64,000 nucleotides of DNA from NCBI RefSeq assembly GCF_022848905.1, contig NZ_JAFIRA010000003.1, forward strand, positions 62,001-126,000. Direction: 5' to 3'. The notes under the pieces are model-generated. The model saw nothing but the letters and a program-made list of their open reading frames with translations, had not been told where the DNA came from and ran no database searches. This DNA is from Thermostichus vulcanus str. 'Rupite'. Lineage in GTDB: Bacteria; Cyanobacteriota; Cyanobacteriia; Thermostichales; Thermostichaceae. The position numbers were made by a program, and so were the translations under genes. Positions 15,089 through 19,072 of this stretch are shown here, in pieces; the stretch's first letter is position 1; every line of letters starts with the position of its first letter.

Positions 15089-15480
15089 CACTCAGGTTCA
15101 TCAGGTTCAGAAGAGACCAGTGGGGCAGAAGATTGAGAAGGGTTAATGCCCAAACGCTGCTCCACCCGCCCAACCAACCGTTTACGAGCCCGCCCTTCCC
15201 AATGATTCAGGCCGAGCATAGCGGCTAGGATCCCCAATTGCAGGGCCAAACTGGGCAAGGTCACACTCAACTCTCGACCTGCCAAGGCCCGAAAGAAAAA
15301 CACAAATGCCCCGATGGTGGCCGAGGATCCCACCGCCAGGTAGATAAAGCGGCGCAAGCTCCGGTAGGGAGAGGCCAACTCGGTTAATAACCTCACCCGA
15401 TCCGCCTGGGAAAGATCGCTGCGCCGGAGCAGGGGGGACAGGCGAGGGGAAAACTGAGGACGACGATCCGATTCAGCCAT
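15085..15480 (-). CDS. DUF3493-like membrane protein
   Basis: The 131-residue protein has the pattern ASPYRSLRRFIYLAVGSSATIGAFVFFFRALAG, which resembles the DUF3493 family found in cyanobacteria and chloroplasts. Two hydrophobic segments follow each other at residues about 45-65 and about 75-92. Its start lies four bases after the ccmP stop on the same strand, so the two are probably one transcript. Function is unknown. Confidence 0.7.
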   Translation of the reverse strand: MAESDRRPQFSPRLSPLLRRSDLSQADRVRLLTELASPYRSLRRFIYLAVGSSATIGAFVFFFRALAGRELSVTLPSLALQLGILAAMLGLNHWEGRARKRLVGRVEQRLGINPSQSSAPLVSSEPDEPEC

Positions 15481-15484
15481 GGGG

Positions 15485-16126
15485 TTACACCTCTGCCTCT
15501 ATCAAAAGGGGATCCCGACCGGAAACCCCCGCCAAAATTTCCTCAGAAGCCCGACAAGCGGCCAAAATATCCCGTTCTTCTCCCCCCAAATAAACACGGC
15601 CAAAGCTGCCGAAGGGCATCACCTCCAAGATGTTGATCTGGGCGGATTTTTCCGCTTCGTTGGCGGCCAAGGGCGCATAGCCCGCCGGTTGCACCTCCAG
15701 AATGTAAAGGGTTTGCCCCGACAACAGCATCTGACCACGGCGGGAACGGTTAATCAACTGGGTCTGGTGGGGGTCGATGTTGCGGATGATCTGGCTGGAG
15801 ATGATGCGGGGCCGGAGGCGTTCCTGTTCTCTCACCCCCAAAGCCGCCAAAATGGCACGACCAGCGGTGCGGGTATCCCCTTGGTTGCTGGAGTGCACCT
15901 CCAAAAGGCCATAAAGGCGCTCCACCACCTGTAGCCCCGGCTTCACCGACGTGGACTTGAGGGCAACATCCATGATGCGGTTAATCTCAATACCCGGAGA
16001 AATCTCGATCCACAGGGAGGTATCGCCGGGGAGGGGCAAAAACCCATAGGCTACCGTACCCAGATAGGCAGCATACTGTGGCTGTAGCCGATCCAAAAAT
16101 ACATAACTGCGCAGGTCAATCCCCAA
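15485..16126 (-). CDS. ccmP: Carboxysome shell protein CcmP (tandem BMC domain)
   Basis: CcmP is a tandem bacterial-microcompartment (BMC-T) protein whose trimers form gated pores in the beta-carboxysome shell. The 213-residue length and sequence match my memory of Ccm[21 protein letters not shown], then [42 protein letters not shown] and [14 protein letters not shown]. Translation seems to begin at TTG 16126, after a GGGAG ribosome site, because no ATG or GTG precedes the conserved start. No other carboxysome gene is nearby, consistent with ccmP standing apart from ccmKLMN in many cyanobacteria. Confidence 0.92.
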
Positions 16127-16217
16127 AAACGTGCTCCCTTTGCAAACTGGACGCTGATTGGTTCTTTGGCAGGCAGATCATCTCTGCAGGACGGGCTTGG
16201 GCAAGAGCTCGGCTCCC

Positions 16218-17573
16218 TCACCACAAGCCACCTTGGGCGACCACCTTCACCGTTGTCAAGGCTTCGACATCAATCGGGCCACGCACGTGCAGCCGTTGGA
16301 TCGAAACGCCCAGCGATAAATCCCGAAACGCCCCTAAGGTTGGGATCCCGGCCCCTCGCCCCGCCGACAGAGGAGAGGTATTGATGTGGATCAGAGCTGC
16401 ATCCACCTCCTGTAGGAAGCGCTGCGCTGCCGATTGGCTATCGGTGAGGATCGTTTCTGATTGATGGTAGCCGTTTTTATTAATCCAGGTGATCGCCTCC
16501 GCCAGATCGGAGATGGGTTGTAGGCGCAGGTGGGGCCGTTCTGTGGAATCAAACCCTTCCCCAATCGGGTGCAACTCGGGATAGTGTTCCAGGATTGGGG
16601 CTGCCGCTTGAATATCGATCCCTTGGCTGAGTAATGCCTCGATCAGCTGAGCCAAATGAGCCGCCGCCCAGTCGGGGTGGATCAACAGCCAGAGGGTGAG
16701 GGGTTGGTAAATCGGGATCCCTTCCGAGCCGTACTGAGCCAGATGATCCAGCAAGACCGACTTCACCAAAGGCCAGGGGGCAGTGCGATCCAGATAAATA
16801 TGGCCATAGCCCAAGTGGGTCATCAAGATCGGCACTTTGCTTGCTTGCAACAGAAACTCCACCCAGCCGGGACGACCGCAGGGAATCACCAGATCCAGAT
16901 AGCGGGTTTGCTGCAGTAGGGGTAACAGGGGGGAATCCTCTTGTGAATCCGCCATCAAATCCTGAGGGGATAACGAGGATCCTCCAGTTCGTGCAGGGCA
17001 AGATTGAATCGCTCCTTCGGGGATCCCGTGTTCGTAGGCAGTCTCTGCCAATAGCTCCACGATGGCTTGGTGGGTTTTTTGAATTGGGCCACTCCCCGCC
17101 ACAATCACACCATTCCCGGTTTTGAGGGCCATACCAATGCCATTCAAGGCAAATTCCGGATAAATCTCGTAAACGAGGGCGATTAACCCCAAAGGCACCC
17201 GGTAACGGCTCAGGAGTATCCCATTTTCCTGCCGATACCCCCCCTCCAATCGGCCGATCGGATCCGGTTGTTGGGCCAAACGGGCCAGCAACTGGGCTGC
17301 TCGTTGCAGGCGTTCGGGGGTGAGCTTCATGCCATTCAGGATCCACTCCGGCAGGGTTTGCTCGCGGCAGCTTTCCAGATCCAGAGTGTTGGCCTCCAGC
17401 AACAGATCAGAACGCTCCAGCAACGCTTCAGAGAGGGCCAACAGCGCCTGACGTTTGATTTGGCTACCCAGCCGCTGCAACTGCGGCAACAGACGACGTA
17501 TCTGTCGCAGCGTGGTGCCTAAGTCAAAATCTTGACCGCTCGCGTTAGCGGGCCGGAGACCATAATCTGTCAC
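16218..17573 (-). CDS. ProA-like (glutamate-5-semialdehyde dehydrogenase) protein lacking the catalytic cysteine
   Basis: The 451-residue protein aligns along its length with gamma-glutamyl phosphate reductase, the second step of proline synthesis. The C-terminal GVSIQRLHVRGPIDVEALTTVK is the clearest match. At the active site, where ProA has GxCHxYxD, this protein has GYGHIYLD: Gly257 replaces the thiol nucleophile. The nearby INASTRFTDG region is also altered to INTSPLSAGRGAG, and the N-terminal cofactor region has diverged. It is therefore unlikely to be the working ProA; a canonical copy may lie elsewhere. It sits upstream of ccmP on the same strand with a 91-base gap. Confidence 0.82.
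   Translation of the reverse strand: MTDYGLRPANASGQDFDLGTTLRQIRRLLPQLQRLGSQIKRQALLALSEALLERSDLLLEANTLDLESCREQTLPEWILNGMKLTPERLQRAAQLLARLAQQPDPIGRLEGGYRQENGILLSRYRVPLGLIALVYEIYPEFALNGIGMALKTGNGVIVAGSGPIQKTHQAIVELLAETAYEHGIPEGAIQSCPARTGGSSLSPQDLMADSQEDSPLLPLLQQTRYLDLVIPCGRPGWVEFLLQASKVPILMTHLGYGHIYLDRTAPWPLVKSVLLDHLAQYGSEGIPIYQPLTLWLLIHPDWAAAHLAQLIEALLSQGIDIQAAAPILEHYPELHPIGEGFDSTERPHLRLQPISDLAEAITWINKNGYHQSETILTDSQSAAQRFLQEVDAALIHINTSPLSAGRGAGIPTLGAFRDLSLGVSIQRLHVRGPIDVEALTTVKVVAQGGLW
17537..17552. repeat. Short dispersed repeat of CGCTAACGCGA type
   Basis: CGCTCGCGTTAGCGGG within the ProA-like gene is the reverse-complement form of a repeat also seen at 26344-26360, 26421-26438, 35338-35364 and 35661-35672 (core CGCTAACGCGA, with CTGATGCGA and CTGACGCGA variants). 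Similar short repeats are widespread in cyanobacteria. Confidence 0.5.
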
Positions 17574-17692
17574 TGCAACTTCTCCCGGTGGAGACCGATC
17601 CGCTGTTTTCCCCAGACCACTGCTAACAGGAAATGACCCGCTTCACAAGTGCTGAGGACACAGAGTCCCGCTTTGCTGCGATACGTGAAGCC

Positions 17693-18178
17693 TCAAGGCC
17701 GCCGCAAGAGCAGGATTGCCGTCACCATCAACAGGGTTAACAACAGGCAAAGAATGATGAACCAACTGAGCAACTGAGTTTGAGTGGGGAACAACAGGGC
17801 GCCGATGAAGCCCACCACCAGCACCACCCCCAAGCTGAGGGTCAGGCCCAAGAGAGCGGATCCCTGGGGGGTATTTTCCCGCCGCAGCACCCACTGATAG
17901 CCGTTCCAAAACCAAATTTTGCGATAGGGATAGGACACCGCCAGTTGCTCAATGTGCAGCTGATCGGGGGTAATGGCAAAAATGTGTTGACAACGGCTAC
18001 AACCAAGCGCCTCCGTTAACGTAATCAAACGTAACTGGCCCTGATGACAACAGGGACAGGGGTAAGTTTTGGTGGGCTCGATCGCTTGAGCGACACGCAG
18101 CACCGGTTTTTGGCGGGGAAACTTGCGGGGAGAAGAAAACGCCACAGGTCTCGGTGAGGAGGAGTCGGGATCCCTCAC
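17693..18178 (-). CDS. Zinc-ribbon membrane protein of unknown function
   Basis: The 161-residue product has a zinc-ribbon-like pair of CxxC motifs (CPCC and CSRC, residues about 40-60) followed by an aromatic segment (YPYRKIWFWNGYQWVL). Two transmembrane helices follow at about 108-130 and about 136-158. The topology suggests a cytoplasmic metal-binding head and a membrane anchor. I recognise no named family. Confidence 0.65.
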   Translation of the reverse strand: MRDPDSSSPRPVAFSSPRKFPRQKPVLRVAQAIEPTKTYPCPCCHQGQLRLITLTEALGCSRCQHIFAITPDQLHIEQLAVSYPYRKIWFWNGYQWVLRRENTPQGSALLGLTLSLGVVLVVGFIGALLFPTQTQLLSWFIILCLLLTLLMVTAILLLRRP

Positions 18179-18252
18179 ATCCTATCTCCACAGTCTCCGC
18201 CAGATCCGAGCTTGAGGACGGATCCCTGACAAAACCCGCCAAACGGATCCCA

Positions 18253-18915
18253 TTAGGGTGCTGAAGAGGCTTGCAGCGAGGCTCGAAATTCCCGCAACAT
18301 TTGGCTGGTACCCACTTCGAAAGCTCGTTCCACCCGTTCCGGAATCAAGGTGAGGATATCCACCTCTGGAAACACCAGGCTAACGGTAGAGTCCCGATAG
18401 CCCTCCGGAGTTAAGAGGTAAATTCGTAAACGGCGATTTTCGTAAATCCACAGCTCCGGCACCTCTAGGGTGGCATAGGCATCAAACGTGGTTTTGGAAG
18501 TAACATCCGTTTCAATGGCTAGATCCGGCGGCGGATCCACTTCCATATCCATACGCATGTGGCTGCACACCTGAGGGGCATGTTGGATGTAAAAGCACGT
18601 ATCCGGCTCTAAGCCCGCTCGTTTCGGTTTCCTGAAGGTGGTGGAGCCAAAATCTTCCCAAGCTCGTTCTTGGGCATCCAGTAGAGCCACGAGGATGTGG
18701 GCAATGATCCTGTGGGGGCGTTCGTGAGCTGGCAAAGGCGACATCAGTTCCAGGATCCCATCGCAGTAGTTGATGCGGGGTACCCGCCGCTCTTCCCCCA
18801 GCTCCTCCAAAAACGCCTCGTACTGCTCCCAGCTCACCCCTTCGATGAGCAAGTGGCTGCCAGGGGAAAGGTGTACCTGGGTGAGAGCTACAGGGGGCAG
18901 AGTCGAGATGGCCAT
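18253..18915 (-). CDS. Uma2 family (DUF820) nuclease-fold protein
   Basis: The 220-residue protein has the restriction-endonuclease-like core of Uma2/DUF820 proteins: LEPDTCFYIQ, PPDLAIETDVTSKT and VPELWIYENRRLRIY. These genes occur in many copies in cyanobacteria and their role is unsettled. A GTG at 18945 would add ten residues; ATG 18915 has AGGA shortly before it. No transposase or methylase is adjacent. Confidence 0.85.
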   Translation of the reverse strand: MAISTLPPVALTQVHLSPGSHLLIEGVSWEQYEAFLEELGEERRVPRINYCDGILELMSPLPAHERPHRIIAHILVALLDAQERAWEDFGSTTFRKPKRAGLEPDTCFYIQHAPQVCSHMRMDMEVDPPPDLAIETDVTSKTTFDAYATLEVPELWIYENRRLRIYLLTPEGYRDSTVSLVFPEVDILTLIPERVERAFEVGTSQMLREFRASLQASSAP

Positions 18916-19072
18916 GGATCCTGTGGTTGAAAGCACTCCCTTCACGTTCCAGGGTAGTTCTGGACACTTGTCTGGGCACCTGTATGGGTCTATACGAACT
19001 CTAGGGTCTTTGGGATCCTGACCTGTTTAGACCGACAAGATTGACAGCTGCTTAGGATCTACCAGGCTAATT

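Follow-up and report, generated by a model that had tools for sequence, protein, structure and literature searches.

Results

The window analysed in this work, a stretch of 64,000 nucleotides from Thermostichus vulcanus str. 'Rupite' (RefSeq assembly GCF_022848905.1, contig NZ_JAFIRA010000003.1, positions 62,001 to 126,000), carries on its minus strand a gene for a protein that is related to the gamma-glutamyl phosphate reductase (GPR) ProA and lacks the cysteine nucleophile of that enzyme. This ProA-like protein is one of eight members, from three genera of the cyanobacterial family of the host, which are together referred to as the window family. The second ProA of most cyanobacteria is referred to as ProA2, a name of our own. 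The gene and the parts of it that are discussed here are the following:

16218..17573, minus strand: ProA-fold paralogue without the nucleophile, 451 amino acids, GTG start (open frame, profile matches, AlphaFold 2 (AF2) model, VIA-align)
16788..16811, minus strand: codons of GYGHIYLD, residues 255-262, at the position of the non-nucleophilic Cys (E. coli C225), from the alignment
16680..16748, minus strand: codons of residues 276-298, where ProA has its true nucleophile loop CNAxE; this protein has DHLAQYGSEGIPIYQPLTLWLLI there, longer by 5 residues
16878..16880, minus strand: codon of Cys232, invariant in the window family (8/8), at the canonical Arg200 position
16251..16295, minus strand: codons of RLHVRGPIDVEALTT, a conserved C-terminal ProA block

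An initial annotation of this DNA had reported a ProA homologue with Gly in the GYGHIYLD motif, a changed loop downstream of it and a strong C-terminal match, and these observations were confirmed: the 451-residue frame is open, residues 255-262 read GYGHIYLD, the region corresponding to CNAxE reads YGSEGIPIYQPLTLW, and the C-terminal block RLHVRGPIDVEALTT is intact. The protein matched the ProA profiles NF001221 (E 4.9e-68, 229.8 bits, curated cut-off 289) and TIGR00407 (E 6.9e-60, 203 bits, curated cut-off 317, exactly 317.45); it is related to ProA far beyond chance, yet lies under both curated cut-offs. The ProA features N62, D65, E136, P139, N154, G233 and N398 (numbering of the window protein) are kept together with the C-terminal RGP block. 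The only cysteines are those at 69, 192 and 232, the last of which sits in an IPxG loop in all eight members of the window family. A scan of 15400-18400, limited to sigma-70-type sites, gave no promoter-like site.

The AF2 model of the ProA-like protein had a mean predicted local distance difference test score (pLDDT) of 86 and a predicted template modelling score (pTM) of 0.86. When it was superposed with VIA-align on E. coli GPR (8zon), a Z of 40.6 and a root-mean-square deviation of 2.6 over 405 residues were obtained at 29 % identity, and the ProA/aldehyde dehydrogenase (ALDH) fold is thus predicted to be retained over the whole chain. The replaced nucleophile loop, residues 284-289, falls below pLDDT 50 and is one of the model's few regions of low confidence. 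A search for publications on 8zok and 8zon, the structures of E. coli GPR, gave none.

The cysteine that the initial annotation took for the catalytic thiol, that of GxCHxYxD, is E. coli Cys225. Papers cited here by PMC number are cited from excerpts. In T. maritima ProA (1O20) the catalytic residue is given as Cys255, and Glu381 is also named (PMC4271523). In the sequence numbering of 1O20, residues 227, 255 and 381 are, respectively, the Cys of GNCHIF, the Cys of GTCNAAE and the Glu of GAEIG. Since both published residues fit this numbering, the catalytic Cys is that of CNAxE, i.e. E. coli Cys253, and the identification of the Cys of GxCHxYxD as the ProA nucleophile was rejected. Fly delta1-pyrroline-5-carboxylate synthase (P5CS) C598 (PMC8963878) also lands on the CNAxE Cys, by the offset of the phmmer alignment limits and hence in approximate numbering. 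The active site of ALDH18A1 is described as having only the catalytic Cys (PMC10650815). The label of a Cys-less ProA homologue stands, since the CNAxE position is without Cys as well; the reason given for it was partly wrong, because it named the other cysteine.

The host genome carries an intact canonical proA (TIGR00407 503.8 bits, NF001221 540.8 bits), the product of which has both cysteines in the intact motifs GICHLYVD and PAACNAIET, and it also has proB (474 bits) and proC (293 bits). The absence of any other proA, which had been named beforehand as the point that would count against a pseudoenzyme, does therefore not apply. In one other window-family genome (G390, loci L037 and L052; 95 % complete) the Cys-less protein was present and canonical ProA was unmatched, probably because of an assembly gap.

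Loss of active-site residues

The nucleophile column was read on one alignment of 122 rows, from which L052-L055 were dropped as copies of L037, L008, L039 and L040. Cys was found in 7/7 canonical ProA of the host's own family and in each of the four ProA sequences that were read from the phylum's other classes. In ProA2 it was found in none of the 103 rows (102 Val, 1 Ile), the VNAIEK loop being otherwise kept. The window family also had no Cys in this column (0/8), Gly or Ser being aligned in a register that is uncertain owing to the 5-residue insert; no member has a Cys anywhere between positions 233 and 304 of the window protein. On this alignment, loss of the nucleophile appears as a general trait of cyanobacterial ProA2, of which the Gly in the ProA-like protein is one corner. 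The initial annotation had read the Gly correctly, but the loss common to the whole ProA2 family had gone unnoticed. At the C225 position the Cys (GNC) is retained in 102/103 ProA2, and the window family has Gly there. The sole ProA2 with Ser at the GNC position (GNSYLYWS) is that of Nostoc sp. ATCC 43529 (L126).

A canonical set of 16 ProA was assembled from cyanobacteria, other classes of the phylum, E. coli, Bacillus, Priestia, Collinsella, Streptomyces, Sinorhizobium and T. maritima, and 70 columns alike in at least 15 of the 16 were regarded as conserved. Of these, 35 were kept in at least 18/20 ProA2 rows and 34 in at least 6/7 window-family rows. Twelve were lost in both groups, namely R65, R122, R181, R200, K246, C253, H332, T370, D374, G375, G381 and E383 (E. 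coli numbering). The Glu383 column holds Ser (6) or Leu (1) in the seven window-family rows and Glu in none of the 20 ProA2 rows; the change of Glu383 to Ala is reported to cut the native activity of ProA orthologues at least 190-fold, and this residue is tied to specificity too (PMC4271523). In fly P5CS, NADP(H) has an adenine contact in the REE loop, Arg525 (PMC8963878). By our own mapping on the REE motif this residue corresponds to E. coli R181, so the adenine-contact Arg would be gone in both groups. As they are common to both groups, these losses are suggested to precede their split, the loop and the GNC Cys having then also been lost in the window family.

Descent and distribution

The first tree contained 58 sequences, i.e. 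54 of the 55 identity-clustering representatives of 128 open reading frames (ORFs), the ProA-like protein, and L038, L144 and L002 added by hand. Without outgroups from other phyla, three groups were obtained in a near-trifurcation, and the placing of the window family therefore depends on the outgroup rows. An outgroup tree was built, with active-site columns excluded, from 20 of 42 ProA2 rows, seven of the eight window-family members (L008 was omitted as a near-copy of L007) and the 16 canonical rows. In this tree ProA2 and the window family (27 rows) formed one clade at 100/100 against the canonical rows. A position of the window family inside the ProA2 crown was not recovered; it was the sister group of ProA2 once the outgroups were added. 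The ProA2 motifs GNCYLYWS and VNAIEK are absent from the ProA-like protein, which has GYGHIYLD and IYQPLT instead, and this too places the window family as a sister group outside the crown. The segments EANTLDLE and KLTPERL are common to the two groups. The identity of the ProA-like protein to ProA2 is about 30-37 %, and its branch is long, with 1.1 changes per column.

A ProA match was found in 380/386 genomes of the phylum. A genome was scored as ProA2-bearing when it had at least two ProA matches or one strong match, so that by this rule, which relies on match counts and not on each sequence, 124/186 genomes of the cyanobacterial class bear ProA2. ProA2 is also present in two genomes of family f9 (L132, L135). 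In f20, a family of small-genome cyanobacteria, ProA2 and the zinc-ribbon protein described below are both absent in 57/57 genomes.

Selection and conservation

The frame is open in 8/8 genomes of the window family, and 157/451 residues of the ProA-like protein are invariant across the three genera. Pairwise ratios of nonsynonymous to synonymous substitution (dN/dS) were calculated by the Nei-Gojobori method with our own script; where dS, which is near saturation between genera, was finite, the ratio for the ProA-like gene was 0.05-0.29. Canonical proA had ratios of 0.10-0.19, ccmP of 0.02-0.08 and the zinc-ribbon gene of 0.07-0.32. Judged by these ratios, the ProA-like gene is evidently under purifying selection. 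Among the nine best-conserved segments of ProA2 (103 rows), most are former walls of the active site (VNAIEK, SNQKG, GNCYLYWS, IPYGRP, YEAFPEL and NASPRF), the assignment to the cleft being made by homology to ProA. With these segments so well conserved, the cleft is under selection, even though it cannot catalyse by the ProA mechanism.

The putative zinc-ribbon membrane partner

Upstream of the ProA-like gene lies a second conserved gene:

17693..18178, minus strand: conserved partner gene, 161 amino acids, zinc-ribbon-like CPxC...CxxC and two hydrophobic helices (neighbour survey, alignment, AlphaFold)

This gene, the ProA-like gene and ccmP are codirectional on the minus strand and separated by 119 and 91 bp. 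One gene family is the commonest neighbour of ProA2, lying immediately upstream in the same orientation in 70/76 named loci, a count in which a contig end can hide a neighbour, and the partner at 17693-18178 belongs to this same family. It is found in the same position and orientation in 8/8 window-family genomes, and it lies upstream in the three f9 loci that were read. A single-sequence search for the zinc-ribbon protein left six of 90 loci unmatched, at least two of which (L062, L079) start near a contig edge. The family is present in 123/386 genomes of the phylum, all of them within the cyanobacterial class.

In 25 aligned members of the zinc-ribbon family, 12 positions are invariant, among them Cys41, Cys60, Cys63 and three Trp, and Cys43 is nearly so. 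The AlphaFold model has six strands and two helices. Of the 18 PDB matches obtained with Foldseek up to E 10, none reached E 0.001 (best E 3.7), NCBIfam gave no match, and the matches in Pfam were all sub-threshold.

The ccmP neighbour

On the other side of the ProA-like gene lies the gene of a carboxysome protein:

15485..16126, minus strand: ccmP, beta-carboxysome shell protein (NF053796 381 bits, cut-off 340)

The adjacency noted in the initial annotation holds, ccmP starting 91 bp downstream of the ProA-like gene on the same strand. It is adjacent and codirectional in 6/6 genomes of the genus and was found in none of the examined stretches of the two other genera of the family (2/2). The suggested functional tie is accordingly weak: the adjacency itself is constant within the genus and absent from the stretches of the other two genera, in which the zinc-ribbon gene is kept (8/8 over the family). 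A role tied to ccmP is not favoured, the linkage having been seen in this genus only.

Discussion

The ProA-like protein has its whole fold in common with ProA (T. maritima 1O20, E. coli 8zok/8zon and the ALDH18 domain of P5CS). Unlike ProA, it has no nucleophile Cys and no counterparts of R122, R181, R200, K246, H332 and E383 (E. coli numbering), and its CNAxE loop is replaced. It resembles ProA2 in belonging to one clade with it, in having the same upstream zinc-ribbon gene and in the absence of the nucleophile; ProA2 differs in keeping the GNC Cys and the VNAIEK loop (Val in 102/103), whereas the window family has a replaced loop and Gly in the motif. With the thiol nucleophile lost, the thioacyl-enzyme mechanism of gamma-glutamyl phosphate reductase is impossible for the ProA-like protein.

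The sequence comparisons argue firmly for loss of catalytic residues, common ancestry with ProA2, purifying selection and an old zinc-ribbon neighbour gene. We consider it probable that this old lineage of cyanobacterial ProA paralogues is a pseudoenzyme on the ProA fold, which most likely serves the zinc-ribbon membrane protein as a ligand-binding or regulatory partner. The pseudoenzyme (or new-chemistry) proposal of the initial annotation is supported by the missing nucleophile and by the presence of canonical proA, proB and proC elsewhere in the genome. The ligand of the former active-site cleft, bound without turnover, would be a metabolite or a partner-protein loop, and the binding state would be relayed to or through the membrane-anchored zinc-ribbon partner, making the protein a sensor or regulatory pseudoenzyme. 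A more specific version, which we put forward as distinctly tentative, is that the two genes form a sensory module of oxygenic cyanobacteria that arose near their root, with a zinc-ribbon anchor and a ProA-fold receptor. In such a module the dead site may bind a metabolite of the glutamate or proline family and report the nitrogen/carbon or redox state, and the window family may have re-tooled the cleft with a new loop and the invariant Cys232.

Several observations weigh against a pseudoenzyme partnered by the zinc-ribbon protein. The window family has lost N254, E257, R371 and F372, all kept by ProA2, and has kept H226 and D230, both lost by ProA2; with such differing losses the jobs of the two groups may differ. 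Cysteines are conserved elsewhere, at the C225 position in 102/103 ProA2 and as Cys232 in the window family (8/8), so chemistry by another residue is possible. Co-occurrence speaks for the partnership, a strong copy of the zinc-ribbon gene being found in 116/124 ProA2-bearing genomes of the class vs 3/62 without ProA2, yet most of this contrast comes from a single family that has neither gene (57/62 negatives), and it is uncorrected for descent. Nor is the partner obligate, as 8/124 ProA2 genomes have no strong copy and three genomes hold a copy without ProA2.

The explanations that compete with a ligand-binding pseudoenzyme, or narrow it, differ in how well they agree with these data. A special case of it, which we regard as rather unlikely, is a regulatory subunit of proline synthesis that assembles with canonical ProA into mixed oligomers, or else binds ProB, and so damps or channels gamma-glutamyl phosphate. 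The retained ProA fold (Z 40.6), the presence of canonical proA, proB and proC in the same genome and the rise of both Synechocystis genes called proA under nitrogen starvation (PMC12386471) agree with it; on the other hand, the gene adjoins a membrane-protein gene, not proA or proB, and family f20 does without ProA2 (57/57). It is improbable, in our estimate, that the protein is an active enzyme of altered chemistry, using Cys232 (window family), the GNC Cys (ProA2) or a non-covalent mechanism on another acyl phosphate or aldehyde. No candidate nucleophile is common to both groups, R181 and R122 are lost in both, and the nucleophile loop of the ProA-like protein is replaced and poorly predicted; these points stand against the invariance of Cys232 in its IPxG loop (8/8), the retention of the GNC Cys (102/103) and the strong conservation of the cleft segments.

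A carboxysome-related factor acting with CcmP appears very improbable. The adjacency of a codirectional ccmP in 6/6 genomes of the genus speaks for it, as does an aldehyde dehydrogenase of GRM1 microcompartment loci in which Ser or Pro replaces the catalytic Cys, described together with a remark on defunct enzyme domains in carboxysomes (PMC4207490). Against this, the examined stretches of the two other genera hold no ccmP, and none of the most frequent neighbour clusters of the 76 named loci, read by eye, was ccmP-like. That the gene is simply decaying without a function is hardly credible: the long branch (1.1 changes per column) and the many lost conserved residues would fit, but the open frame in 8/8 genomes, the dN/dS of 0.05-0.29 and the 157/451 residues invariant across three genera disfavour it.

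Members of the ALDH superfamily without the catalytic Cys have been described before, i.e. the animal ALDH16A1 (PMC10650815) and the GRM1 enzyme with Ser or Pro in its place (PMC4207490), and non-enzymatic roles have been proposed for them. The ProA-like protein appears to share this trait of ALDH pseudoenzymes, the catalytic Cys being absent from a conserved and seemingly selected protein. ALDH16A1 and the GRM1 enzyme belong to other ALDH branches, not of the ProA type, and the excerpts on them mention no zinc-ribbon membrane partner. An earlier description of a ProA-type pseudoenzyme in cyanobacteria was not found in the searches made of the open-access literature. In co-occurrence module 111 of cyanobacteria, two groups of likely regulators accompany a 'glutamate-5-semialdehyde dehydrogenase' group (PMC5862535), and the latter is possibly ProA2. 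The module is treated there as EC 1.2.1.41 of proline synthesis, the missing nucleophile and the zinc-ribbon neighbour going unmentioned in the excerpt. Synechocystis sll0461 and sll0373 are both called proA and their transcripts are taken as proline synthesis (PMC12386471), and ProA is listed among the proline enzymes in PMC7133116, in the excerpt of which two genes are not named.

In many cyanobacteria the second ProA is annotated as glutamate-5-semialdehyde dehydrogenase. The NF001221 ProA equivalog cut-off was passed by 4/7 nucleophile-less ProA2 proteins tested, for which this name is probably an error. If the second ProA cannot catalyse this step, it is a mistake for metabolic models, readings of expression data and engineering to assume two ProA enzymes. 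The lineage would also be a pseudoenzyme of the ProA type that much of a phylum has retained and that has a conserved partner gene, and as the hosts of ProA2 include organisms with good genetics, its role is directly testable.

Other genes around the pair

In many cyanobacterial genomes a second, more distant zinc-ribbon copy (E about 1e-17 to 1e-21) occurs at a locus other than that of ProA2. Among the 76 named loci (L056-L131), a lumazine-synthase-like ORF lies upstream of the zinc-ribbon/ProA2 pair in 29 and a short psbZ-like ORF in 10, both named by reading the sequence. In the window, the zinc-ribbon gene is preceded on the same strand by a Uma2-family gene (PF05685, 68.9 bits) at 18253-18945.
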